Positions 1 through 64,000 of a DNA stretch of 64,000 nucleotides are shown in pieces. The notes beneath the pieces were generated by a model. The model saw only the letters and a list, made by a program, of their open reading frames with translations. It did no database searches and had not been told where the DNA came from. The stretch is from Callaeas wilsoni (lineage: Eukaryota > Chordata > Aves > Passeriformes > Callaeidae): contig VWPU01013448.1 in assembly GCA_013398955.1 (NCBI GenBank), forward strand, positions 1 through 64,000, read 5' to 3'. The position numbers were made by a program, and so were the translations under genes. Every line of letters starts with the position of its first letter. Positions within the stretch are counted from its first letter, which is position 1.

Positions 1-69
1 ATGAGGCTGAAGGTGCTGGGGTCCAAGTTGGCCACTGCGAGGGAGGTCAAGGGGTCAGTGGTGGCACCA

Positions 70-790
70 AAACCTCTGGTCAGATGTCCAGGAGTGGACA
101 TGAGAGGCTTGTAGCCACCAGGACCACCCAAAACCTCTGGTCAGATGCCCAGGGTTGGACACAAGGGGTTTGTAACCACAGGGACCACCCAAAATCTCTG
201 GTCAGGTGCCCAGGAAGGGTTGGTAGTCACCGGGGCCACCAAAACCTCTGGTCGGATGTCCAGGAAGGGTTGGTAGTCACCGGGGCCACCAAAACCTCTG
301 GTCGGATGTCCAGGAAGGGTTGGTAGTCACCGGGGCCACCAAAACCTCTGGTCGGATGTCCAGGAAGGGTTGGTAGTCACCGGGGCCACCAAAACCTCTG
401 GTCGGATGTCCAGGAAGGGTTGGTAGTCACCGGGGCCACCAAAACCTCTGGTCGGATGTCCAGGAAGGGTTGGTAGTCACCGGGGCCACCAAAACCTCTG
501 GTCGGATGTCCAGGAAGGGTTGGTAGTCACCGGGGCCACCAAAACCTCTGGTCGGATGTCCAGGAAGGGTTGGTAGTCACCGGGGCCACCAAAACCTCTG
601 GTCGGATGTCCAGGAAGGGTTGGTAGTCACCGGGGCCACCAAAACCTCTGGTCGGATGTCCAGGAAGGGTTGGTAGTCACCGGGGCCACCAAAACCTCTG
701 GTCGGATGTCCAGGAAGGGTTGGTAGTCACCGGGGCCACCAAAACCTCTGGTCGGATGTCCAGGAAGGGTTGGTAGCCACCAGGACCACC
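70..790. repeat. 50-bp minisatellite in the zinc-finger gene intron
   Basis: A tandem array with an almost perfect 50-bp unit. Units start with AAAACCTCTGGTC at 241, 291, 341 and so on every 50 bp to 741, giving about 11 near-identical copies. To the left, units starting at 70 and 131 are about 61 bp long and diverged (they contain GGACATGAGAGG or GGACACAAGGGG in place of the shorter middle). A transitional 50-bp unit starts at 192. Further decayed similarity runs to about 835. The layout suggests an older 61-bp repeat from which an 11-bp-shorter variant was homogenised and expanded recently. It lies downstream of the splice donor of the - strand zinc-finger exon, so it is intronic. Open frames across it are an artefact of the repeat. 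Confidence 0.97.
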
Positions 791-941
791 CAATATCTCT
801 TTTCAGACGCCCAGGACGGGCTTGTAGCCCTCCGAACGCTGTAGCCCACCCGCCGACGCCCCGCACGCCCCCGAGGCCGGGCGGGAGCAGAAGACCCTCC
901 CCGGCGCGAGCCCCGAGGAGCAGGAATTTGGTACAAACTAC

Positions 942-2646
942 CTTTTTTCTTCTTCTTTTGGAAGGAGAACTTCTGCTCGATGGCCTTGACCTCCTCGGCC
1001 GAGATGAAGTGGCGCACGTTGTAGCTGACCCCCACCCTGTTGAGGTGGCCGCGGACGTGGTTGGCCAGGCCGATGCCGTTGTGGAAGCGGTCGGGGCAGT
1101 AGGGACACTTCCTCTCCTCGTTCTTCAGCATGGTGGCCTCCGAGTCCAGGAGGTCATCGAGCTCCAGGGGACCCTCCAGGGGCGCGTCCAGCAGCAGCAC
1201 GTCCAGGGGAAGCGGCTCCTCCGTCAGGAAATCCCGCGGCGGCGCCGGCATCGGCACCGGCACCGGCGCCTTCTTCTTGAGGGGCTTCCCCCGCGGCCTC
1301 TTGGCGGCCTTGGGGTGCGGGGCCAGCTCCTCGAGGAGCACGACGGGCACCATCATCCTCAGCTGGTGCTGCTGCTCCTCCGAGGCCACCGCCGGGTCCG
1401 TGGCCCTCAGCGTGGCCCCGAAGCTCCTCTTGAGCTCCAGGGCGGCACGTGGGACGGCGCCGGCGGCATCGGCGTCGCCCAGCTCCATCTCGTCCTCGGC
1501 GTCGCCGGCCGGGGCCCACCCGTGCCGCAGCTCCTCCGGGCCGTGGCCCCGCGGGTCGTCGCCGTCGCCTTCCAGCTGCCGGGCGGCCGCTCTCCGCCTC
1601 AGCTGCTGCAGGGCCGAGTGGGAATAGGCCCCGGCCGAGGGAAATCCGGGAAACGCCAGGTTTTTGTGCGGGGCGGAATACGGCGCCGCCTTCCTGGCGT
1701 GGAAGCCGTGGAAGTCCTTCTTGGTGGCCCCGTTGCTCTTGTCCGGCCTGGGATGAGCCAGGCCGAAGCCAGGCGGGGCGGGGTCGTAGTGGGCCGAGCT
1801 CTCCCGGCACGGAGGCGGGAAAAGCCGCTCGGTTTTCCCGAAAAATTCCACGTCGGCGAAGCGGCCGGGCCGGGCGGGGCTGTAGGAATCCCGGCTGGTG
1901 CCGGGCTGGTTGGGATCGTCCTCGAAGGCCTCCGGCTCCCAGGAGAAGTGGGAATGGGCGTATCTCACGTGCTCCTTGAGGACGTGCTCGTTGGGCGCCG
2001 GGAAGCCGCAGAGGACGCAGGCGCCCAGCCCTTTGCCGGGTGCCGCCGCCGGCAGCTCGTCGGCCTTGAAGGGTTTGTAGAGGCCGTGCCCGGGGCTCTC
2101 GCGGAGCTCTCCGAAGAGGCCGGAGCTCTTGGCTCCGTGGTCCTTCCTCTCCTTGACGTGCATCTTGGCGTGCTGCACGAAGATCTTGGAGGAGTTGGTG
2201 CCGAAAACGCACTTGGGGCACTGCAGCCGCGCGTCGCGCCCCTCGTCCGGGAACTCGTTCAGCTTCTGGATCTCCTCGATGATCTTCTCCCGCGACTCCT
2301 GGTGGAGCCTCCTGTGCCGCTCCAGCGACGCCGGGTCCCCGAAGGCCCAGCCGCACTCGCCGCAGCAGAAGCGGCACCGCCCGGCCGGCGCGTCGCCGGC
2401 GCGGTCGGCGCCGCGGTTGTGCTGGAGCATGTGCTCCAGGAGGTGCTCCTTCTTCCGGAAGTAGATGCTGCACTCGATGCAGGTGAAGACGGCCGGATCC
2501 TCCTCGTGCTCCGGCCGCTCCTCCTTGTCCCGCTCCTCCACGAGCACCCCGCACACGTAGGGCCTCACCTCCACCTCGTAGGCGCCGCACGGCGCCGGCT
2601 CCAGCGACAGCAGCCGCTCCACCGAGTCCTCGGCGCTCACCGTCCA
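942..2646 (-). CDS. WIZ: Large C2H2 zinc-finger exon, WIZ-like (ZNF644/WIZ family), partial gene
   Basis: The - strand frame has no stop across about 1.7 kb. It encodes five separated C2H2 fingers at about 2481-2419, 2364-2302, 2220-2158, 2019-1954 and 1107-1045. Diagnostic pieces include FTCIECSIYF, LQCPKCVFGTNSSKIFVQH and CPYCPDRFHNGIGLANHVRG. They resemble ZNF644 (for example LQCPQCVFGTN) but, as I recall the sequences, fit its paralogue WIZ better. WIZ and ZNF644 recruit the G9a/GLP (EHMT2/EHMT1) H3K9 methyltransferase complex in the nucleus. The exon ends after five lysines at AAAAAAG|GTAGTT (donor GT at 941-940), leaving phase 1, as expected if the next codon is Val. Later exons would lie left of the window. 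The 5' border is uncertain: conserved-looking coding starts near SAEDSVERLL, and no strong acceptor is obvious. No ATG is assigned, because the open frame further upstream starts at GTG within GC-rich repeats. The family is secure; WIZ itself is likely. Confidence 0.75.
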
Positions 2647-3200
2647 CGACCGCTTGCCCACGCCCGGCGGCGGCGGCGGCGCCCGGTAAAGTTTGGCGGC
2701 GTTAGGAAGTGCCTCGCCGCTGCCCGCCGGCGGTGCCCGGAGCCTCGTCCCGCCGCCCCGTGCCGTGCCGTGCCGTGCCGTGCTGTGCCGTGCTGTGCCG
2801 TGCTGACCGGCCCCTGGGGCTTCTTTTTCGCCGGGGCAGCCGCAGCCCTTGCGGGCAGTGGCTGCCGGGGCAGCGCCGGACGCCCCGCTCCAGCCGTGCC
2901 CTGCCCCCGTCCTCGCCACGGTGAGCGCGGCCGAGGGGCGTGAGGGGGTGGTGCCCGGCGCCTCCCCTCTCCTCGCCGCCTCCCGTCAGTCCCCGGCGAA
3001 CTTGAGGGCAGGGTGTGATCGAGCCCCGTCTCCCGGTGAGGTCGGGCTCCGGGCTCTGGCACGGTTCCTGAGGGGCAGGGCTGCTCGGGGGCCGTGACCT
3101 GATGAGCCCTGGGCGGTCTCAAGGTGCGTGGCCGATGGCCTCGGGCTCAGCGTCCCGTAGCTGCCTATGGGCCCCCGGGACTGTGCGGGACCCAGCTCAG
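2600..3200. promoter_or_regulatory. CpG-island-like GC-rich block upstream of the zinc-finger exon
   Basis: The sequence is dense in CpG and GC (GCCG, CGCC and CCGG strings) and stands out sharply from the AT-rich DNA after about 3540. It could be a promoter island or just the high-GC intron or flank typical of genes on small avian chromosomes. Donor-like strings occur on the + strand (ACG|GTGAGC at 2920/2921 and AAG|GTGCGT near 3122), but none follows a DPYD-like first exon. No transcription start can be placed from sequence alone. Confidence 0.45.
2761..2805. repeat. TGCCG/TGCTG pentamer microsatellite
   Basis: Nine consecutive 5-mers, TGCCG with interspersed TGCTG, inside the GC-rich block. 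On the - strand they read as CGGCA/CAGCA, which accounts for the low-complexity Thr/Ala/Arg/His stretch in the open frame upstream of the zinc-finger exon. That argues that this part of the frame is not real protein. Confidence 0.9.
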
Positions 3201-3249
3201 CACTGTCCCGCAATGGGTCGAGCCGCGCTCACGGACTGCACCCAGTCTC

Positions 3250-6200
3250 TTCGGACCCAAACAATTGCATGGAAGGCTGAGCAGGCGGGCAGGGGTAGTA
3301 CCCTTGCTGGAAGTGGCTTTCTCACCTGTGGCACTTAAGGTTTTTGCATGACATTCCTTGCTGCAGGTCGTGCTGGGTGCTGGAAGTAGGGTCCGGACCT
3401 GGCCTTGGGAAGGCGGAGCTGAGGTGGAGTGTGACCAAGGCTGGTGCAGTGGCACACGGAGTGAGCTCCTGCTGATGTTGGCCAGGTTGCAGGGTTGGAC
3501 TTCAAGGTAGCGTTTTCCCACCTTTCACAGGACCTCACATTTGGCTGTAAACTTCAGCTCTTTATGAAGAGTCTAATAAAACAAAAGCAACGATAAACCA
3601 ACTTGTTGATAGTCTCGTTCTAGCCTGACACAACTTTTTGTTGTAAGTGTAAAATGTTAAATTTAGGGTGGGCTGTTGCAGCTCATTGAGGCCCAGACAT
3701 AATACATAAATATGCAGAGCAAAAACTTGAACACATCTCTAAGTCAGTTGTGACTGAATTTTGTCATTAGTTCTTGTATTGAGTTTTTGTGTGCAGTCCA
3801 TTTCCTAGCTGAGCTGCTGCTCAAACCATGACTAATGTCCAGAAACAGTCTTACAGATACTCTGATAAAACTGAAGCATGGAATGGATGAGAAGAATGAA
3901 CTATCACAGAAGTCTTCCTGGCAATTAGGGAGGCACTGTGGTATGAAATCAGCACTGTCTTTTACTAGCTCAGTGTTTTCAGAGCAGCCAATCTTGGATT
4001 TTTCTTCAAGTGTTAAAGTTTGTTTTTCTCTGACAAAGGTTTGATTTTAGTTGTACAGGTTTTTGAGTACTTTCCTTAAATTTTTAAAGCAGAATATTTC
4101 CTGTATTACATTGTTTTGCATTTCTAGATACGTATGACTCAGATTCAAAGAACAATGTTATGGTAGGATCCTGTGTTGGTAATAGTATGCAGTACTACAT
4201 GATTTAGGAGATGAATTGATGGATTTTGAAAACACTAGTGTTTGCTTTATTCTGAGGTTTCAGATAGAAACTTTGGTCAGTACCTTCCTGTATTTTTATT
4301 TTCAGCAGTCATTTAAACTAGCAAGGAAATCAATGCAGTCTCTTTCTAACCAAATGTATTGTCCTTCTCCCATCTGTTCGAATAAATTTAGTTGTTGTAT
4401 GGTTTGTCTCCCGGATGAATATATCAGTAATTACTGATAATCTAATTGCAGCATTTCAGTCCTGTGTGGTTTTTGTTGGTTGGTTGTTTTTTCTTTTTTC
4501 CCCCCCCCCGCATAGAACTTTATTTTTTGAGGGGAGGAAGTACTACATTTTCAAAAAATGTATTTTATCTTTGTCTTTGAAGTAGGGGCAGTGCCTGTTA
4601 GCTAATCCTATCATTGTGGATAAATATTCTCAGTAATTTGTTTGTTGAGTGGAGGAGTCTATCAACATGAGCACTGGCAGCACAGCTGGAATATTTTAGT
4701 CACTTTCTTGGCTATAGTATAAAAACAGAACTAATGATTTAATGGAACTTATCTCAATGGTTAGTGTCTCAAATTCGAGTTCATATAATTAAAATATTAA
4801 AAATGATCTCTGAAGTCCTAGTGCTACTTTACAATGTATTTAAATAGTTAAGACTGGATAAAAAGACATGTCATTGGTTAAAGAAGAGCCAAGAATCTGT
4901 GCTAGAAGTAGCTAAAATCACTGCTGGTTCTCCAAGTTATTTTACAAAAGAAAAATTCCAGGAAACTGTCCCTGAGGAATCTTGTCCCCCTTGTTTGGCT
5001 TAGCCAGCAGCTTCAGCCTCTGGACCTAACTACAGAAGATGAATAAATTACATAGATAGTTGTGTTCTAAAAATCTGCTTTCCAAATTGTGGAAGACTAG
5101 GTGTGTTGTGATTTAAATATATGCTTTTCTCCAATTTTATTTTTTTTAACACTAAAACAAAAATGACACCCAGAATACCAAAACAAAACAACAACTCCCT
5201 CGCCTTAACTACTGGCAACTCCACAAACCCCAAACACTGCCTTTTCTTGAATACAGTCAACTATCAAAGTGTGCTGCTGATATTCTGTGGACACAGATAC
5301 TCTAAGCAAAAGGAAAGAAAGCTTGTTGTGAAAGTACCTACCTTGGTTTTATGGTCTAAAGACTTCCTTGGATTTTTTTTTATTATCTCTCTAAATCTTT
5401 ACAAGAATTTTTGAAATCTACACTATGAGGGCAGCATTCCCTTTCTAACTTGTATTGTGAAATTATTAAATGTACATTCAAGCTCCAGAGAATGTTTACA
5501 TACTTCATGTAAACTTTCCAGTGATACTCTGGGAAAGAAAGTCTTCCATTGTTTTGCCTTCTCTTTAGTTTCACCTGATTCCTGACTATCATTGTGTGTA
5601 AAACATGTATAATTGCTTCTGTTGCAATCTTCAGGATTCTTTGAAGAATTAAAGTTGTCAAATCACGTACTCGGAAATTAATGAATCACAAAGTGGTTAA
5701 GTGTCAAATAGAATCTTGAATGACATTGTTTAGCGTTGTTCTCTGCGTGCTGTTTTCCTGACTGCTTCCCAGTGTTTCCCTGCAGTCTCTCTCATTTCAT
5801 GCGGTGATGTTTGGGTAGTGGGTACTTTCTATCTCTTTGCCACCCCGACTGCAGCTGGGGAGAAGAGTGGGTCTCCCCGCCTTCCTTGGTGAGGGCTTCG
5901 TGGCTGCAGGGTGGAGAGGCTGTGCCGCGCTGCTGCCACAAACCTGCAGCAGTCACACACAGTGAAAACCAGCGCCCCAGCGCAACTTGGTATGAAGCAG
6001 CGTTATCGTTCTCGCAGTGGGTAGGCAGTATGTTGGCACTTCACAGATCTATCCTTCCTTCTGAATCATGTGTTGCATATGTTTAAAGGGGAATTGGGTG
6101 TTGATGAATGGGTAATTCCCTGCTAGACCAGCAGCTGGGTACCTACAATGCTATCACAGCTGTTTCCACCCCAGCACTGATGCTTGACTTGTGAGAATAA

Positions 6201-17100: not shown

Positions 17101-20100
17101 ACTTTTGTTAACATAGACATATTCATAACTAAGACTTTCCCGACTTTTGTGGGAGTGATTTAGAAAACTGCTCATTTTGTTAAGACGTAGTATTTACATA
17201 TTGCTGGAAAATCTGAGGACCAAGAAATTCTGTTGTGGTAAAATTGAAAATCCCACTCTCTAAGTATCTAGTAATGGATCTAATGGATCTAGGACTACAC
17301 CTCTAGGATACTGGTATGCTATGGGGGTGTTACAGGGTAAATTGTCTTACCCTCTCTGAGTATTAGAAGCTGTGCAAGGAGTGCTAGAAACCAGAAAGAT
17401 GCTTGATCTGCTATCAGCAATTCGTTTTACGGGGAGATCTAAAGCTATGTGGAAATGTAAAGATGAAGATACAGCACTTAAATGCTATGCTAACGGCATA
17501 TGGCAGTGCATATGCTTATCACTAGATCATCCATTGGCCTTAGCTCTTGCTCCTTTTTGAAACTATGAGCTTGTGTGGCTTGAAGAAGAAATTTGTCTTG
17601 TGATTAAAAGCTGAGTCTTTTTCCAGCTGGTTTTGAGCTCCCTGTGCCCATATGCACACTGGGCTGTGCATTCAGGGTCAGGCCACAGTCCCTTGGGCAG
17701 GCTGGGTTCTCCATCCCTGTCTCACAGGAGGCTGCAGCGCTCCTGCTCTTCTGGCACTGGTTCATAGGCTGCTTGTCTCTCCAGAGGAGTGGAGCCCCAT
17801 CTTCCAGCTTGCTGTACCTTGAGGATGGGTTTGTAGCTATCATAATAGTATAAAGGGCCAGTTCTCAGGCATGGGCAGGAGGCCACCTGGAGAATTTATT
17901 GTTACTGGAAGAGATGAGAGGGTTGCACCTTGTCACACTGTGGTATATTGGAATAAATATGTTCACAGTCAGCTTGTGACTTTGCTCACATGTGCAGCCG
18001 TTTGTCTCAGTAACAGAAAACATATCTGGTAATATACAAAAATAATTCCTTGGAGGTTTCCCTTGGATTTTCCAAAGGCTGACCACATTCTTCCCTTGAC
18101 ATTTGTGCTCATTTCACATTTCATCAAGCTTTCTCTGGCCTTTGTTGCTTCACAATTAAACCAGGCCTGAACTACTGTGAAAGCATGGTCTTTTCACCTT
18201 TTTGAAATTTTTGCATGAATTCATGAATGCCTGAGATACATTATCAGCCAAGTTACATAAATTGTTTGTAAAGGTTCTCATCAATTCTGATCTTCAGTAA
18301 GGAAATACGCATTTGACACAAGTATCAATTTGTGGGATATTCTGTCATAAATAAGCGTGTGGGAAAGACTGACAACACTATATTCTTTCAATAATGGAAA
18401 ATAACATAGAGCTAGCTTTGGGAAGACATGACACCATAGATACTTACTTTCTGAAATCTTGTGTTTATCTTCTAGTGCAACAAACTCTCCTATGACTAGA
18501 ACTCGCTCTTTCTGATTTGGCAATGAAACTTCCATGTATAGTGGGGATTTTACATGGCGTGTCAAGTCCTGCATCTGACTGCCAGTGCTTCATGCAGCTT
18601 TCCAAGAAGTAGAGTAGATGTGAGAAGTAAAATACGAATTAGGCAATTCAAATTAGATATTAATAGGAGTTCATGCCTTGGTCATCTTCTGCACTGATGG
18701 GATTTTTCAATGCAGTTCAGGTCATCTAATCTCATGAAAACAAATACTTTTGAGTTCTTTAGCCTTTGACGGAATAGCAATTATACAATTAGTTTCATAT
18801 TCAGATATACTAGAAAATATTAGTGAAAAAGCCCCAGGTATTTGTTTCTGTCAGTGAATTAACACTTGCATAGCGTTGAAATTAATTGTTTAGTATGCTC
18901 ATTACTCTTAGAAAAAATAAATATGTTCTCATTATGTTTACTTGGTGAACATATGTATCTTGCAGTACATTTAATGTTACTTGCTGTGAGGGAGATTACA
19001 ACTCTTTTTAAGGAAATTGGGTAGATTAATGGAATGGGGTGGGTTAAATTGCTCTCCACATGCATTCCCTAGCATGCCTAGCCTACTCCTGAATTTTAAT
19101 TGATGTATATAAAAGTGTTTAGCTGAGGCGGCTCTGCGAAGCAACTGGATTAAATCAGGATATAGCCTGTGTATTGCAGAGGCTGGGCTAGGGAAAAGAG
19201 CTGTATGCTAAAACAAAGACCGACACATGGCACCTTGTTTCATGCCCACAACCACAGTGTGCAGGTGAGCTGTTGCATTTTCTGCAGCTCCACTGTGACA
19301 GTACACGTATTGATCTGTGGTGATCTTCAGCGGGTGTTCAGGGGTCATTCATAGGAAACTTCCCCAACAAGCTACAGGAAGTGGACAGAATCCATGGAAT
19401 GAGCAAGTATTTACTTTGTCTTTTCAAGAAGTTTACATGGTTTTAATAGCACAACTTGTAACAGAGCCTGAAGATAGATTTTCTGATCATTATTCTGGCT
19501 TTGAATGAGCAGTAGCAAATATGAGAATTACTAAGTACTAAATACTCCTGGTGCAGCTCATTGGTTCCAGTAGGAGGCTCTCCAGAAGAGGAATAATCTT
19601 TAACTATTGAATTTTTCCGAATTTATTCTTTTGAATGAGAGATAAAGTCCACATAAGCAGGACACCTTGCTAAAGTTGTTACTTTTGGGGAGAAAAAAGA
19701 AAAGCCAAAGATTTCACATCAGGGTGCTTTAAAGAGAAGCTTTCAGAATTTGAATAAATGTCACATAATGCTGCTAGACTTGCAGGCCTTTTTAATGACT
19801 GTCTTAAAGTTACTGCGATCCCGCCTGTGTTCTAAATTGTACTTCTAAATTTTGTTAACAACATCCCCTCTGTCCCTTCCCCCCTGTCCCCACTGGTTTT
19901 GGAGCATTCCCAATGAGCATAGGGCTTCCATAACTTTATATTTTATTTTGCTGAATATGCGTTTAATTAAGAGTCGCATTTAATTGAAATAGCTTCTTCT
20001 GATTTCAGGAAAAGAGTGGCTTTATGAGATGAGAATAAAAAGTATGCGACACTTTTAATGACATTAAAAGCAAAATTAAATGTCTTTAGAAATTTATGTT

Positions 20101-23100: not shown

Positions 23101-23784
23101 AAATGAGATCACTTTTGCTGTAGAAATATGTCGCTTGCCTGATTTGAAAAAGAGTTTTGGTTCCAAAAATCGGATTTAATTTGTTGAGTTACACTAGGAC
23201 AGTGAAAGACATTGCAAACTTCATTCTGCCTGTGTTGTCAGACCACCACTATGACTTAAAAGTACGGCTATATTCCTGAGATTTATTTTTGTCCTTGCAA
23301 ATAAAAGCATTTTAAGATAAATGAGTTAACTCATCAGCTCACTAGGCTTAGAAGAAGATTATTTTGACAGGGAAGTTGGAGTTTATACTGAAATAATGAA
23401 ACATTCAGAAATAACCCAGATCTTTTAAAATATTTTTCCTTGTTTTGCTCTACAAGTGTTACTTGGAGTGACATAATAAAGCAGAATTATGTGTTTCTAT
23501 ATGCTGTACATAAAAAATGTCTGGGAATGGCAACCATTATTAAAGCTACTAAATATAATTCTGTTTTCTAGTAATCCTAGAAATGTCCTTAAATATTCAT
23601 CATCTAAATGGTGTGGACAATACAAATCTAAACAAATTAGTGTGGAGTTGGGCTATAATGTTGAATAATTGCATTTGGTTTTACATGGTACTGTAAATAA
23701 ATGTGTAAAGTGTGATTGAAGAGGCTTTGAACCTTTATGGAAATTTTAATCTATATTTTAATATCTTTTGTTCTTTTTCTACAG
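14113..23784. other. Non-coding stretch, presumed DPYD intron 1
   Basis: AT-rich intron. No exon, RNA gene or confident transposon was recognised. Only short open frames occur. One - strand frame at 21796-22092 (98 codons) is slightly longer than its neighbours but matches nothing I know. A 20-bp repeated, partly palindromic motif lies at 17013-17063. The end of the stretch carries the polypyrimidine tract and AG acceptor of DPYD exon 2. Confidence 0.6.
17013..17063. repeat. Two-copy 20-bp repeat with palindromic core
   Basis: TTAATGTGTAATGCATTAAC at 17013-17032 recurs with one change (GCGTTAAC) at 17044-17063, 31 bp apart start to start. Between them is AAATGCGTTAC. Each copy ends in an ATTAAC- or GTTAAC-type half-site like those of HNF1 and related homeodomain factors, but a full GTTAATNATTAAC site is not present. 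Confidence 0.6.
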
Positions 23785-23895
23785 AACATTCTGGCTTTAA
23801 ATCCCCGAAAACAAACACATGCAACTCTTCACTCAACTGCAGCAAAGAAACAAGTCAAGAAGCAATGGAAAAGGAATTCTGACAAAAACTGTTCA
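23785..23895 (+). CDS. DPYD: DPYD exon 2 (dihydropyrimidine dehydrogenase)
   Basis: This 111-nt exon is flanked by a polypyrimidine tract ending in TTTTTCTACAG and by the donor GTAAGT. It encodes 37 residues including [15 protein letters not shown] and [13 protein letters not shown], which align without gaps to human residues 14-50 (SILALNPRTQTHATL...). Length and phase 0/0 match human exon 2. The enzyme is the cytosolic, NADPH-dependent first and rate-limiting step of uracil and thymine breakdown, and it also inactivates 5-fluorouracil. This exon is part of the N-terminal helical domain ahead of the iron-sulphur cluster cysteines. Residue 29 (codon CAC at 23830-23832) is His, where human has Cys29, the site of the common C29R variant. 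Numbering assumes a 13-codon exon 1, which was not found in the window. Confidence 0.97.
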
Positions 23896-40679: not shown

Positions 40680-41328
40680 TGTGGTTTAACCCCAGCCGGC
40701 AGCTAAGCACCAACAGCCACTTCCTCTCCACCCCCCGGTGCGATTGGGGGGACAGTCAGGAGGGGAAAAGTGAGAAAACTTGTGGGTTGAGACACAGACA
40801 GTTCAGTAGGTAAAGCAAAAGCTGCACACGCAAGCAAAGCAAGGAACTGATTCAGTACTTCGCGTGGCAGGCAGGTGTTCAGCCACGCCCAGGAAAGCCG
40901 GGCTCCATTGCACATGATGGTGACTTGGGAAGACAAACACCAGCATAGAATCATTACCGTTGGAAAAGAACTCCCAAGATAATCAACCTTCAGCTAATTA
41001 CCAGCATGCCCACTAAACCATTTTGCAAAGAGTAACTGCTCTGAACCTCCCTCCTTCTTTTTCTTGCCCCATCTTTATGTGCTGAGCATGACTCCATATA
41101 TCTGGGATATGCCTGTGGTCAGTTGGGGTCAGCTGTCCTGGCTGTGTCCCCTCCCAACTCCTTGTGCTCTCCCAGCCTCCTTGCTTTGGGGCCTTGATGC
41201 TGTGTAAGTGCTGTTCAGCAATAGCTAAAACATCCCTGTGTTATCAACACTGTTTTCAGCAGAAATCCAAAACACAGCCCCAGAGCAGCTGCTATGAAGA
41301 AAATTAACTCTACCCCACCCAAACCCAG
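40680..41328 (-). mobile_element. Solo LTR, avian ERVL-type, - orientation, interrupted by CR1
   Basis: It starts 'tgtggtttaaccccagccggcagctaagcac' and ends 'gaaaattaactctaccccacccaaaccca', the reverse complement of a common avian ERVL-type LTR. Internal landmarks are 'acttgtgggttgagac' and 'ggtcagttggggtcagctgtcctggctgtgtcccctcc'. It lacks any gag, pol or env sequence, so it is a solo LTR. A CR1 tail fragment (about 40944-41036) splits it. It is the same family as the LTR at 59521-60048 but in the opposite orientation. The family name is from memory; the borders were judged by eye. Confidence 0.85.
40944..41036 (-). mobile_element. CR1 3' fragment nested inside the LTR
   Basis: 'catagaatcattaccgttggaaaagaactcccaagat' followed by 'accagcatgcccactaaacca' is the reverse complement of a CR1 3' end. 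LTR sequence resumes at 'ctctgaacctccctcc'. CR1 therefore inserted after the LTR, which orders the two events. Confidence 0.75.
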
Positions 41329-49741
<8,413 letters not shown>

Positions 49742-53519: not shown

Positions 53520-54260
53520 GTTTTGGAGATCGTTGATCTGGACCATCTTTCCTGCTCAGAGCAGGGTCAAGTAGAGCAGGTTGCTCAGGGCTGTGTCCAA
53601 CAAGGTTTTTTTATATCTTCAAGGATGGATGCTTCACAGACTGTCTAGGCAAACATCCTCACATTAAACAACAGCAAAACTCAAACAAAAAAGCCACCAA
53701 CGTCCCCTCCTCCCCCCTTTTTTTTAAACCGGAATTCCACTTCAGCTTGTGCCTGTTGTTTCTTGCCCTTTTGCTGAGGACTGCTAAGAACAGTCTAGCT
53801 CTGTTGTCTTTATTCCCTCCCATCAGGTATTTATACATTTTGATAAGATTCCCCCTGAGCCTTCTCTGCTCAAGGCTGCATGTCCCCAGGTCTGCCAGCC
53901 TCTCCTCGTATGACAGACACTCCAGTCCCTTAATCACCTCAGAGCCCTTTTGCTGGGCTCGCTCCTGTACATCCATATTTCCCCTGGCCTGGGGAACCCA
54001 GCACAGGACACAGTGCTCCAGGTCTGTCTCACCAGTACTGGGCAGAGGAGAAGAATCTCCACTCTCAACCTACAGGTAATGCTCTACCTGGCGCAGCCCA
54101 GGGTGCTGCTGGCCTTTGCTGCGAGGACTGTCTCATGCCTCATCTTCTCCTCCACGACCCTCAGGCCCTTTCCTGCAAAGCTGATTGCCAGCTGGCTGGT
54201 TGCAGCTTGTACTGGTGCCTGGGGTTGTTCCTCCCCAGGGGCAGGATTTCATGGTGGTGT
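53520..54260 (-). mobile_element. CR1 LINE fragment, - orientation
   Basis: It reads as the reverse complement of a CR1 3' half. It begins near 'ctgctcagagcagggtcaagtagagcaggttgctcagg', continues through 'tctgccagcctctcctcgtatgacagacactccagtccc' and 'acacagtgctccaggtctgtctcacc', and ends near 'ggttgttcctccccagg'. It contains insertions (a poly-T/C block at 53706-53727). The tail part 53593-53677 is almost identical, inverted, to 55256-55340. Confidence 0.88.
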
Positions 54261-60048: not shown

Positions 60049-62099
60049 TGTGTTTAGAACCCCTTGGTTATAATGACTATTATTAGCTACTGATACTTAG
60101 TTTTTTTGCTGCCTCTCAAGAGTTCTAGCTTTATATTATACTGGCTGTTGTGGTTTTTGGATGTAAGAGCAAACATCCATTTTCCTAGAAATGTTTTCTA
60201 TGTTGGGGTGAGGGTGTTTCAGAGATTAAACTGTGGGTCCAGCTGTGCCCTAAGATATTTACCTTCTATCAAAATTAATCTATCCTTCCCCTGTGGACGT
60301 CTGAATTTAAATCCTGTTTATTTACTTGAGGCTATTTGGGAGACCAAGAAAAGATTATCTAAATTTAATGTTCTAATGGAATCAACTTGTTTATTGAAAG
60401 TGAGACTGTAAGGTGTATTGGACTTTTTTCAGTAAGAGTGTTGTTAAGATATACTGGAATCAGTACCATACATTTAGCTAATTGGATACAAAATTTCCCA
60501 AAAACAGTTTTCCATCCTTATTTCTTCAGAACAAAGATACTTTACATAGGAATCTGTTTCAGTGGAGCTTGCTGTTGAAAAGTTGATGGGCAGCCATTTA
60601 AGCCCTAGACCACTTCAGGTTTTTCAGGACACCAGCCAGAGGCTTTCACTGCTAGTGCCTAAGGCAAGGCTACTAAATTTCGGCATCTCTAGGGCTGAGG
60701 AATGTTGGGATCTCAGGCAACAATTTGTACAAAGAAGCTGCTTGCAGAGTGAGACAAAGTAAGAGGTGTAATGGAGAATAAAAGAACAAGCTGTTCTGGA
60801 GTGATGTCTCCTGCCACCTTGAATGCCCACACTGCTCGTCTAGGGCGTGCTCTGTAGGGTGCACAGAGCACTGGCAGCGACCAGGTTCTTTGTGGAGCAG
60901 ATTTGCAGAAGGTTTCAATTTGTATGTGTTTAGTGTATTTAAGTTGTTCAGCATTTAGTTCCAGCTTGGTCCATCCAATACGAAAAGTCAAGGTGATTTG
61001 TGGTTTTTGTGGTTTGTTGGTTGCTTTGTTGTTTTTGTTTTTGGTTTTTTTTTGTCCCCGGGAAGAAAAAAAAAATGGTCTCTTCTTTAAAACAGACCCT
61101 GAAGTCTTCTAAATATCACCATAGAATTGCACCCATTCAAATGAGTTTTAATAATTGATCTGTATATGGAACAGAATGTAATGGAAAGAATTACAATGTG
61201 ATTTCCATCAGAATACAAAAGACTTGATTTATAATCTGATACCATTACAATACAATAATCTTTTAAAACAAGTAAGTTATTTTAAAATAGTATGACTAAT
61301 TTTTAAACTCCTATTTTTAATAGTATTTAATATTTCTACTATTGCCACATAAAAAATTAGTGATTACTATTACTATATATAATACTTTTTAAATTTAATA
61401 AAGTAATTATGGCTGCTATCTTTGTAAAAACTATTACTTTTATTACTACTATCAAATAGTAGTGGTGAATAGTACTGATTAATGCTACAAATACTTTCCT
61501 TACTGTTATTTTGCCTGCTGAAGATTTTTCCACGTTTGTGGTCATTAATTAGTATTAACCAAGCATTTGTTTTGTAAATGGTAATGTATCAAATGAAGAA
61601 AAATATTTTTAAATTGGTATCTGACAGTATTACCAAAAAGACAAGAAAACTCTTTGAGGAGCGTTTTAAAATAGAAAAAACTATATTTATATAATAATTT
61701 TTCTTCTTATCCTACCTGGTATATCTTCCTGTTTGAGCAAAAAGTGGCTTTCCTAGTGCCTCTACCTGCTTATCTGTGTTTTTCTAATGAAGAGAAGATG
61801 CACTTGAGCACGTGTAGAACAGTTTCAGTTCCCAGGGAGCCACAGATCCTTGCTTGGCTCGTGGCTGGCTGTTACACGTTGGGCTGTGCCTCAGTATCCA
61901 CCCCTCACTCTTCCCGTTCCAAATTTGCCTGCATGGCAACTGCTGGTGCTGTTAACCCTCTTCTGTCCTGAAGGGTATTCCCTCGTGGCTTCGCGGACTA
62001 AATATTTAATTGGGGTGGGAATTGTTCAGCTTGTAATTAAAGAACTATACAGAGCTGTTTAAAAGTACTTGAACAGGAGTGGTTATATATTTAAAAGAG
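60049..62099. other. DPYD intron 3, no gene recognised
   Basis: AT-rich intron, with a very AT-rich block around 61120-61700. Nothing coding was recognised. Short frames at 60562-60991 on both strands lack any known product. Confidence 0.55.
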
Positions 62100-62575
62100 A
62101 TTCTGGGCCCATTGAGTGTGGTCCACTGAAGAGAGCTGTGGCCCCATGGCTGGGAATCGCTGGCCCCGTGGCTGCAGTAGCCTAGGCAGAAGATGTTTCT
62201 TGAGTGCATCTTTCAGCCCGCACCGAGATGCAGCTGCACAAACAGCAGCATCTGGCATGACCTCCCTCTTTGGGCATCAGACGAGCGCAAATGGCTCCCG
62301 TGTGGAGTCACACGTTGAGTCGTGCCCTGCCTGTCGGGTGCCTCAGTGCCACCTCCCGGGTGCCTCGGTGCCACCTCCCGGGCGCCGCTGGCCGCTGTGC
62401 GGGGGCTGCGGGGCAGAGCGTGCCCGGCGGGGATGCGCTGCTGCTCCAGGGCCCCCTCCGGGCAGGTGAGCCCTTCCAGGCTGTCCCAGCACGGCTGGCC
62501 AGGGAGCTGTGCCGGGGAAGCCGCAGGGACACGCGTGTCCGTGGTGGTTGCTCGAGCCTACAGGACTAGGTTAGA
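62100..62575. other. GC/CpG-rich island inside DPYD intron 3
   Basis: An abrupt rise in GC and CpG (GGCGCCGCTGG, GCGGGGCAGAGCG, GGCGGGGATGCG and similar) in an otherwise AT-rich intron. It contains a two-copy 22-bp repeat at 62336-62379. Overlapping open frames occur on both strands but have no recognisable domain. It could be an intragenic CpG island or alternative promoter, or a GC-rich repeat remnant. Confidence 0.5.
62336..62379. repeat. Two-copy 22-bp tandem repeat
   Basis: GGGTGCCTCAGTGCCACCTC plus CC at 62336-62357 is followed directly by the same unit with one change (CTCGG for CTCAG) at 62358-62379, inside the CpG-rich patch. Confidence 0.9.
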
Positions 62576-64000
62576 AGTAAGCTGAAATAAGCACTTTTCA
62601 GGAAGGGTTATGTCAGGCTTAATGCCAGCTGTTTTGTTGTAGAAACCTTCTGCTTCTGGGCCACACTGCTCATAGACACGGTCATTTTAGAGTATCTTCT
62701 GCTATTAGAGATGTGGCCATTCTAGGCACAAATCCTTCTGTGGACAGAATCATAGGGAAAGGTTGGTTAACACCTCAGAAGAGAGAAACCCACTCTTTAC
62801 CCAATTGCAGATGAAATCCCTGATTTTGCTTTTATAGTGCAGGAAGGCATTTAACCAGCAGGGACTATACAGAATTATTTTTTTTTCTCTCATTCTTAAT
62901 TGAAATAGATCTGTTTCAGTAAGTATAAAACTAACTCCCTGCTTCTTTGATCAATTTTTATTCCTTTATTCTACTTTGCTACACTGGGTGAATGAAGACT
63001 TTACCTCTAATTTGGAAAGGCCTGAGTAATCTTTTTGCTATTGGCATTGCTAAATAGTCTTTCTCCTGCTAGTATAATAATGTCACAACATATAAAATTT
63101 ATTTCTTTTTAAAACTAAAACTGCAAACAGAGCCTTGAAATGCAACTTATCTTAATATTTTCTCTTCTATCATACTCATTTAATTCTTGATGTAAAACAA
63201 GAATTCATTGCTTTTGTGCTGGAAGCACAAAGCTACAAGTTGATAATGGTAACTCGATGTTTGTAATAGAAAGTGCTGTTCCTGTAGAGTGGTCCAATTA
63301 CACAATAGTAAAGCAGGGATGTAACACAGCAATGCTGCTTTCCTATTTGTTTCAGTAAGTTTAGCACAGCGGGAAACGTGGCATTCTTCCAAGGTAATGC
63401 GTCAAGCTTACAGTTGGATGGAAGTGCAATGGAAATTATTCCAAGACTTCGCATGCCAGCTAATAACTCCCACTGAATGTATGCGACAATTGTCTTCTGA
63501 AATGTATTTGATGTCGTTTCATTGCAAGGATTTTATATTTTAATTTTGAGATATTATGGTATTCTAGAGATATTTGAAAAAGTTTCTCTGTAGGTGCTAC
63601 ATTTACAGCATTGTAGTTTTAGTAATCAAATGCAACTTCTGTCTGGTTAGAGATCATGTACACTCTTTTTCAAAAATCCTACTGTATCTTGTGAAATCAG
63701 AAAGAAGTACTCCATTAATTAGATCAAATTATGTACATTGTTCCTCAAAAAAGGTCCTATTTTTTGAGGAAGAATATATCTAAAAATCTTAACTGAAAGT
63801 ATATGCACGATATCAACAGAATGTCTCCTTTCTTTTTGAAGTGTGGAATGTAATAATGTATCAGCCATTTGACAGCTGGGAAAAACCAGAAATGTCGAGG
63901 CATCTTTTTTGGTAGTCATGTTGCTGCAGAGACCTGGGTGTTGCATTAGGAATCAGAATTTTTGCAGTTGGTCTCATTCTTGACTAGTTTTCACATTGCT
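62576..64000. other. DPYD intron 3, end of window
   Basis: AT-rich. A short ATCATAGGGAAAGGTTGG at 62747-62764 may be a CR1 tail remnant in - orientation. No exon 4 of DPYD or other gene was recognised before the window ends. Confidence 0.5.

Follow-up and report, generated by a model that had tools for sequence, protein, structure and literature searches.

The window analysed here (the whole 64,000-nucleotide stretch, positions 1 to 64,000 of Callaeas wilsoni contig VWPU01013448.1) places part of a WIZ gene beside DPYD, an adjacency which, on sequence comparisons, is most probably an assembly misjoin and not biology. Two passerine-like contig ends, probably from one genome, would have been joined at about 2.66–2.70 kb via GC-rich simple repeats. 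The left end would be the interior of the zinc-finger exon of WIZ and the right end the CpG-island edge of DPYD intron 1, the missing parts of both genes presumably lying elsewhere in the same genome; the joining may have been brought about by the repeat or by low coverage of such GC-rich sequence. This reading is preferred because one point in GC-rich repeats appears to truncate two unrelated genes. WIZ is cut near 2661, and within the window DPYD exon 1 is absent upstream of exon 2, though it may be situated left of position 1. Three explanations had been offered for the adjacency (a lineage-specific translocation or segmental duplication, an antisense gene nested within intron 1 of DPYD, or a contig misjoin between a putative GC-rich small chromosome and the DPYD chromosome); the last is best supported, and the window holds no complete nested antisense gene.

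The WIZ (widely interspaced zinc finger) portion occupies positions 942–2661 on the minus strand and represents the 3′ part only of the zinc-finger exon, with an intact frame and a 5′ end that is cut off. A motif scan of minus-strand positions 2661–942 identified five encoded C2H2 fingers, and Pfam finger families matched the exon. When the open frame was used in a protein search (scoring the 7987 candidates with most shared words, of which 50 were listed at E ≤ 1e-5), the top match was a Wiz-like protein from Corvus hawaiiensis. Every row among these 50 that carried a gene name was Wiz or Wiz-like, while the remaining rows were either unnamed or described as 'hypothetical', 'uncharacterized' or 'C2H2-type domain-containing'. 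Identity to the window was 83.2% for Corvus hawaiiensis (476 of 572 aligned positions; 574 residues, GVGKRSW to KKKKK), 74.7% for Calidris, 64.2% for platypus and 56.0% for a mandrill, with 73.6% for Leiothrix Wiz over a shorter compared stretch. GC content by codon position was strongly periodic across 2661–943 (GC3 0.88–0.99 versus GC2 0.30–0.54), in blocks that were cut at 2661 only after the homology result had been seen. The frame is open across 574 codons, which is weak proof on its own because this GC-rich sequence also holds other open frames (738 aa on the plus strand and 515 aa on the minus strand); it is by homology that the gene is identified as WIZ. ZNF644, a WIZ relative located nearer to DPYD on human 1p, was considered as the source of the fragment and rejected, as the named matches were Wiz. 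The gene names given in the original prediction, WIZ and DPYD, were correct, with homology confirming both pieces, and the WIZ-derived reading frame that it placed on the minus strand is confirmed by the Wiz-like matches together with the five C2H2 motifs. Its description of the exon as frame-intact applies only to the part that remains; the exon itself is incomplete, as it lacks its 5′ part and WIZ stops at ~2661.

On its 3′ side, the exon ends in a splice donor at 942/941, with the GT at 941–940 on the minus strand. Translated residues across this boundary read KKKKKGSLYQI in the window versus KKKKKGSMYSI in all eight ORFs that we selected from the 50 matches (unnamed lgn rows), and the functional-looking donor that had been predicted was thus corroborated both by its GT and by an intron start similar to that of its relatives. 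Together, the exon end at 942, the donor and the intron-start residues identify positions 1–941 (minus strand) as the beginning of the intron downstream of the WIZ zinc-finger exon. Because the intron start is included in the eight ORFs, these are probably genomic; some could be partly spliced RNA. Most of 1–941 is filled by a 50-bp minisatellite at 166–790 (12.5 copies, 97% matches), and 61-bp units form a related array at 67–215. The next WIZ exon downstream in relatives (VANFDPSTFSLMRC...) would be expected left of position 1. The window shares with bird 'protein Wiz-like' sequences the five C2H2 fingers, the CPYCPDRF...KKKKK exon end, the donor position and the intron start. It differs from them in that the exon is represented by its 3′ part alone, the upstream coding sequence of the relatives being missing; these comparisons included an alignment of 8 of the 50 proteins.

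The point at which WIZ similarity stops was located in several ways. Searches by tblastn with WIZ proteins reached a match limit of 2661 for three of the four queries and of 2679 for the fourth, and GC content by codon position was flat in the adjoining interval 2985–2662 (0.75/0.81/0.81). A coding change-point score, calculated from base composition with no use of homology, also peaked at 2661 within a broad optimum of ~2640–2700; since the training stretch (2361–943) and the noncoding background (2800–3100) were both picked, this estimate is not free of choice. The tblastn end and the change-point together place the most likely junction at 2661–2700, with an outer limit of ~2770. When blastp was run without composition correction, 9 of the 50 proteins yielded a weak gapped extension that reached as far as frame residues 73–94 (window positions 2769–2706), so that the end of WIZ carries an uncertainty of ~100 bases and the join could lie as far as ~2770.

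In relatives, the coding sequence continues beyond this point. At least 12 residues precede the first aligned residue in 46 of the 50 WIZ relatives, while the other four (P0006, P0008, P0029 and P0039) start at or within this exon region, and some of these are labelled partial or might be other isoforms. All eight inspected ORFs have at least 195 residues upstream of the alignment start, with alignments beginning at residues 238, 224, 196, 225, 221, 259, 259 and 244 in P0002, P0003, P0005, P0017–P0020 and P0023, respectively. As these ORFs run through position 2661, an ordinary exon boundary there was rejected, and WIZ is taken to be cut in the middle of the exon. The two named passerine WIZ proteins, from Corvus hawaiiensis and Leiothrix lutea, likewise extend upstream of the 2661 point. 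Within the window, a query of the 108 residues on the upstream side of the join had no protein match at E ≤ 1 (3323 candidates), and a complete WIZ exon with in-frame upstream coding sequence was not found. Given the truncation and the missing 5′ part, the proposal that this is an intact copy, either recent or under selection, is not supported.

Simple repeats lie in and just to the right of the junction interval, with (GGC)5 at 2666–2680 beside the WIZ end and (CCGTG)9 at 2758–2803 to the right of the interval. The window contains zero N, and the join is therefore not a visible scaffold gap. From 2700 to 3550 (plus strand), the composition profile is that of CpG-island DNA in which GC content and CpG ratio decay rightwards: CpG observed/expected falls from 1.16 (2601–2800) to 0.32 (3401–3600) and GC from 0.77–0.78 to 0.51. 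The sharp GC drop that had been reported at 3.3–3.6 kb is real, spanning about 3.2 to 3.7 kb, but it is not the junction; because WIZ ends at ~2661, the fall lies 0.6–1 kb to the right of it. The step was rejected as a candidate junction on the basis of this earlier loss of WIZ signal and of its appearance, which resembles a CpG-island shore. The interval 2700–3550 is perhaps the right-hand half of a promoter island belonging to DPYD, with the start of DPYD intron 1, in which case DPYD exon 1 would be expected just beyond the join. A good-looking donor in the DPYD direction (CACG/GTGAGC, 2911–2930, plus strand) is present in the CpG island, and could belong to a noncoding first exon or have arisen by chance.

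DPYD itself is represented by two coding exons on the plus strand. Exon 2 (37 codons, 23785–23895) has an intact acceptor and an intact donor (TTCA/GTAAGT), is 100% identical to Erithacus rubecula and Corvus moneduloides across the 95% of the query that matched, and matches PDB chains of dihydropyrimidine dehydrogenase at E=1.8e-12; as predicted, it lies ~21 kb from the join. Exon 3 (28 codons, about 49658–49741) was located by tblastn with bird DPYD and is identical to Corvus moneduloides at 28 of 28 residues. The order and frame of the two exons are as expected. The locus thus agrees with known DPYD (dihydropyrimidine dehydrogenase) genes in exons 2 and 3, their order and strand, and the splice sites of exon 2, and differs from them in that a search upstream of exon 2 in the window found no exon 1.

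Exon 1 of DPYD comprises 13 codons, MARVLSRDPVDIE, in 10 of the 32 DPYD rows, including those of two passerines, Oenanthe melanoleuca and Pseudopipra pipra; further rows carry similar versions. In at least 12 bird DPYD rows the protein starts otherwise, so that evidence for exon 1 comes from the remaining rows; eight of those that start otherwise begin with the intron sequence immediately before exon 2, and look as if exon 1 had been missed. On the plus strand of 2661–23784, exon 1 was not found (best score 20 versus 17–27 for shuffled controls; one peptide, 30 shuffles). Likewise, when three exon-1 variants were compared with both strands of the whole window, the best scores were 23 of 63, 30 of 67 and 20 of 64, the second of which falls at 46321, downstream of exon 2. 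A diverged exon 1 was also sought in the window and none was found. A WIZ exon 'spliced onto the DPYD locus', as first described, is not supported, as the exon is truncated and the first exon of DPYD was not found. Separately, positions 17411–17470 (plus strand; single copy in the window) resemble an alternative DPYD first exon in isoform P0073 of the pigeon Patagioenas fasciata (55% over 20 aa, with E of about 1e-5 when 23.8 kb was searched). There is no GT donor following this segment, which was for this reason set aside as evidence of DPYD synteny; it might represent repeat sequence or a relict that is no longer spliced.

Both parts of the window are probably derived from a songbird, since the best matches of each are passerine. 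The degree of similarity is uneven. DPYD exon 2 together with 13 codons' worth of the preceding intron (23746–23895) matches Corvus moneduloides exactly in translated residues, whereas the WIZ part reaches just 83% identity with Corvus hawaiiensis. Rapid evolution of passerine WIZ would account for this difference, Leiothrix also being distant; other possible accounts are that the WIZ part is a paralog or that it comes from another bird.

Several alternatives to a misjoin retain some probability. A lineage-private rearrangement or an insertion, considered jointly, is unlikely. A real translocation or inversion, with breakpoints in the WIZ exon and in or near the DPYD promoter island and with the 5′ parts of both genes detached, would explain the lack of gap letters at the join and the intact frame and fingers of the WIZ remnant, and the simple repeats there could mediate genuine recombination. 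Such an event would have broken WIZ and DPYD together, yet the remaining parts of both lack decay; moreover, WIZ is continuous in two named passerines and DPYD exon 1 is kept in two others, and on balance we regard it as distinctly improbable. A more specific form, in which a recent, lineage-private songbird break via the GGC repeats fused the interior of the WIZ exon to the DPYD promoter island, is harder still to credit; were it true, the zinc-finger half of WIZ, a chromatin regulator, would have been placed under the promoter of DPYD, or facing against it. Alternatively, duplication of a segment or an insertion would have left an extra, truncated WIZ fragment in DPYD intron 1; DPYD exon 1 would then lie left of position 1, and a complete WIZ would exist elsewhere. 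That no exon 1 was found between the join and exon 2 is consistent with this, since exon 1 may be situated to the left of the window, leaving room for a genuine insertion. On the other hand, an intact 574-codon frame with a strong codon signature is unexpected in a promoterless fragment unless it is very recent, and the decay of the island looks as if a promoter lay at or left of the join; an insertion of this kind has, in our estimation, only a slim chance of being correct.

The two remaining alternatives are extremely improbable. A whole WIZ-like gene in normal use, lying antisense within intron 1 of DPYD, would fit the intact donor and the similarity of the intron start at the 3′ end, but hardly an exon without its 5′ part. 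Upstream of the exon, the nearest CAG (2722–2720) has no clear pyrimidine tract (judged by eye, unscored), and tblastn with four WIZ query proteins found no other WIZ parts in the window at E ≤ 1, including any further exon to the right. Songbird germline-restricted chromosomes unite gene copies from several chromosomes and carry mixed gene fragments. Derivation of the contig from such a chromosome, to which passerine best matches for both parts and the mixture of gene fragments would correspond, is scarcely to be expected given the identity of DPYD exons 2 and 3 to Corvus moneduloides, and the literature collection searched contains no paper with both 'germline-restricted chromosome' and 'DPYD'.

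A misjoin has partial parallels in published assemblies. According to passages of PMC9516821, GC-rich 5′ exons and promoters, as well as microchromosomes, are lost from earlier assemblies built from short or Sanger reads, and passages of PMC7757076 describe 43, then 76 misassembly corrections in a bird-of-paradise assembly. The passages of these two papers have in common with the present window the loss of a GC-rich first exon or promoter at a contig end, as suggested here for DPYD; the difference is that two damaged ends here appear to have been joined gaplessly, a case that those passages do not contain. In passages of PMC4015844, the gene block around WIZ is almost wholly missing from bird databases, with WIZ and LPAR2 themselves found in chicken and mallard. 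Among the matches listed in literature searches for a WIZ–DPYD neighbourhood, no title concerned such a neighbourhood, and searches on WIZ among missing bird genes, on DPYD on chicken chromosome 8 and on WIZ with dot chromosomes were unproductive. In PMC11394229, the words WIZ, DPYD and bird occur once each, under the title of a human breast-cancer methylation review; WIZ and DPYD are both absent from the main text of PMC12954441. If the join is an error, the contig would give false synteny and could yield a DPYD annotation without its first exon together with a broken WIZ, and it would exemplify GC-rich ends that were wrongly joined, beyond mere loss. If it is real, it represents an unusual break across two conserved genes.

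Rfam gave 0 matches at the gathering score. Several further repeats were observed elsewhere in the window. Two inverted copies of a dispersed repeat, possibly CR1, occur at 40682–41322 and 60043–59529 (two pieces, 76–77% identical). Downstream of DPYD exon 3, an inverted repeat pair (53584–53689 and 55342–55238) is 94% identical over 106 bp, and a 22-bp tandem repeat at 62335–62386 lies in the GC-rich kilobase 62001–63000 (GC 0.51).
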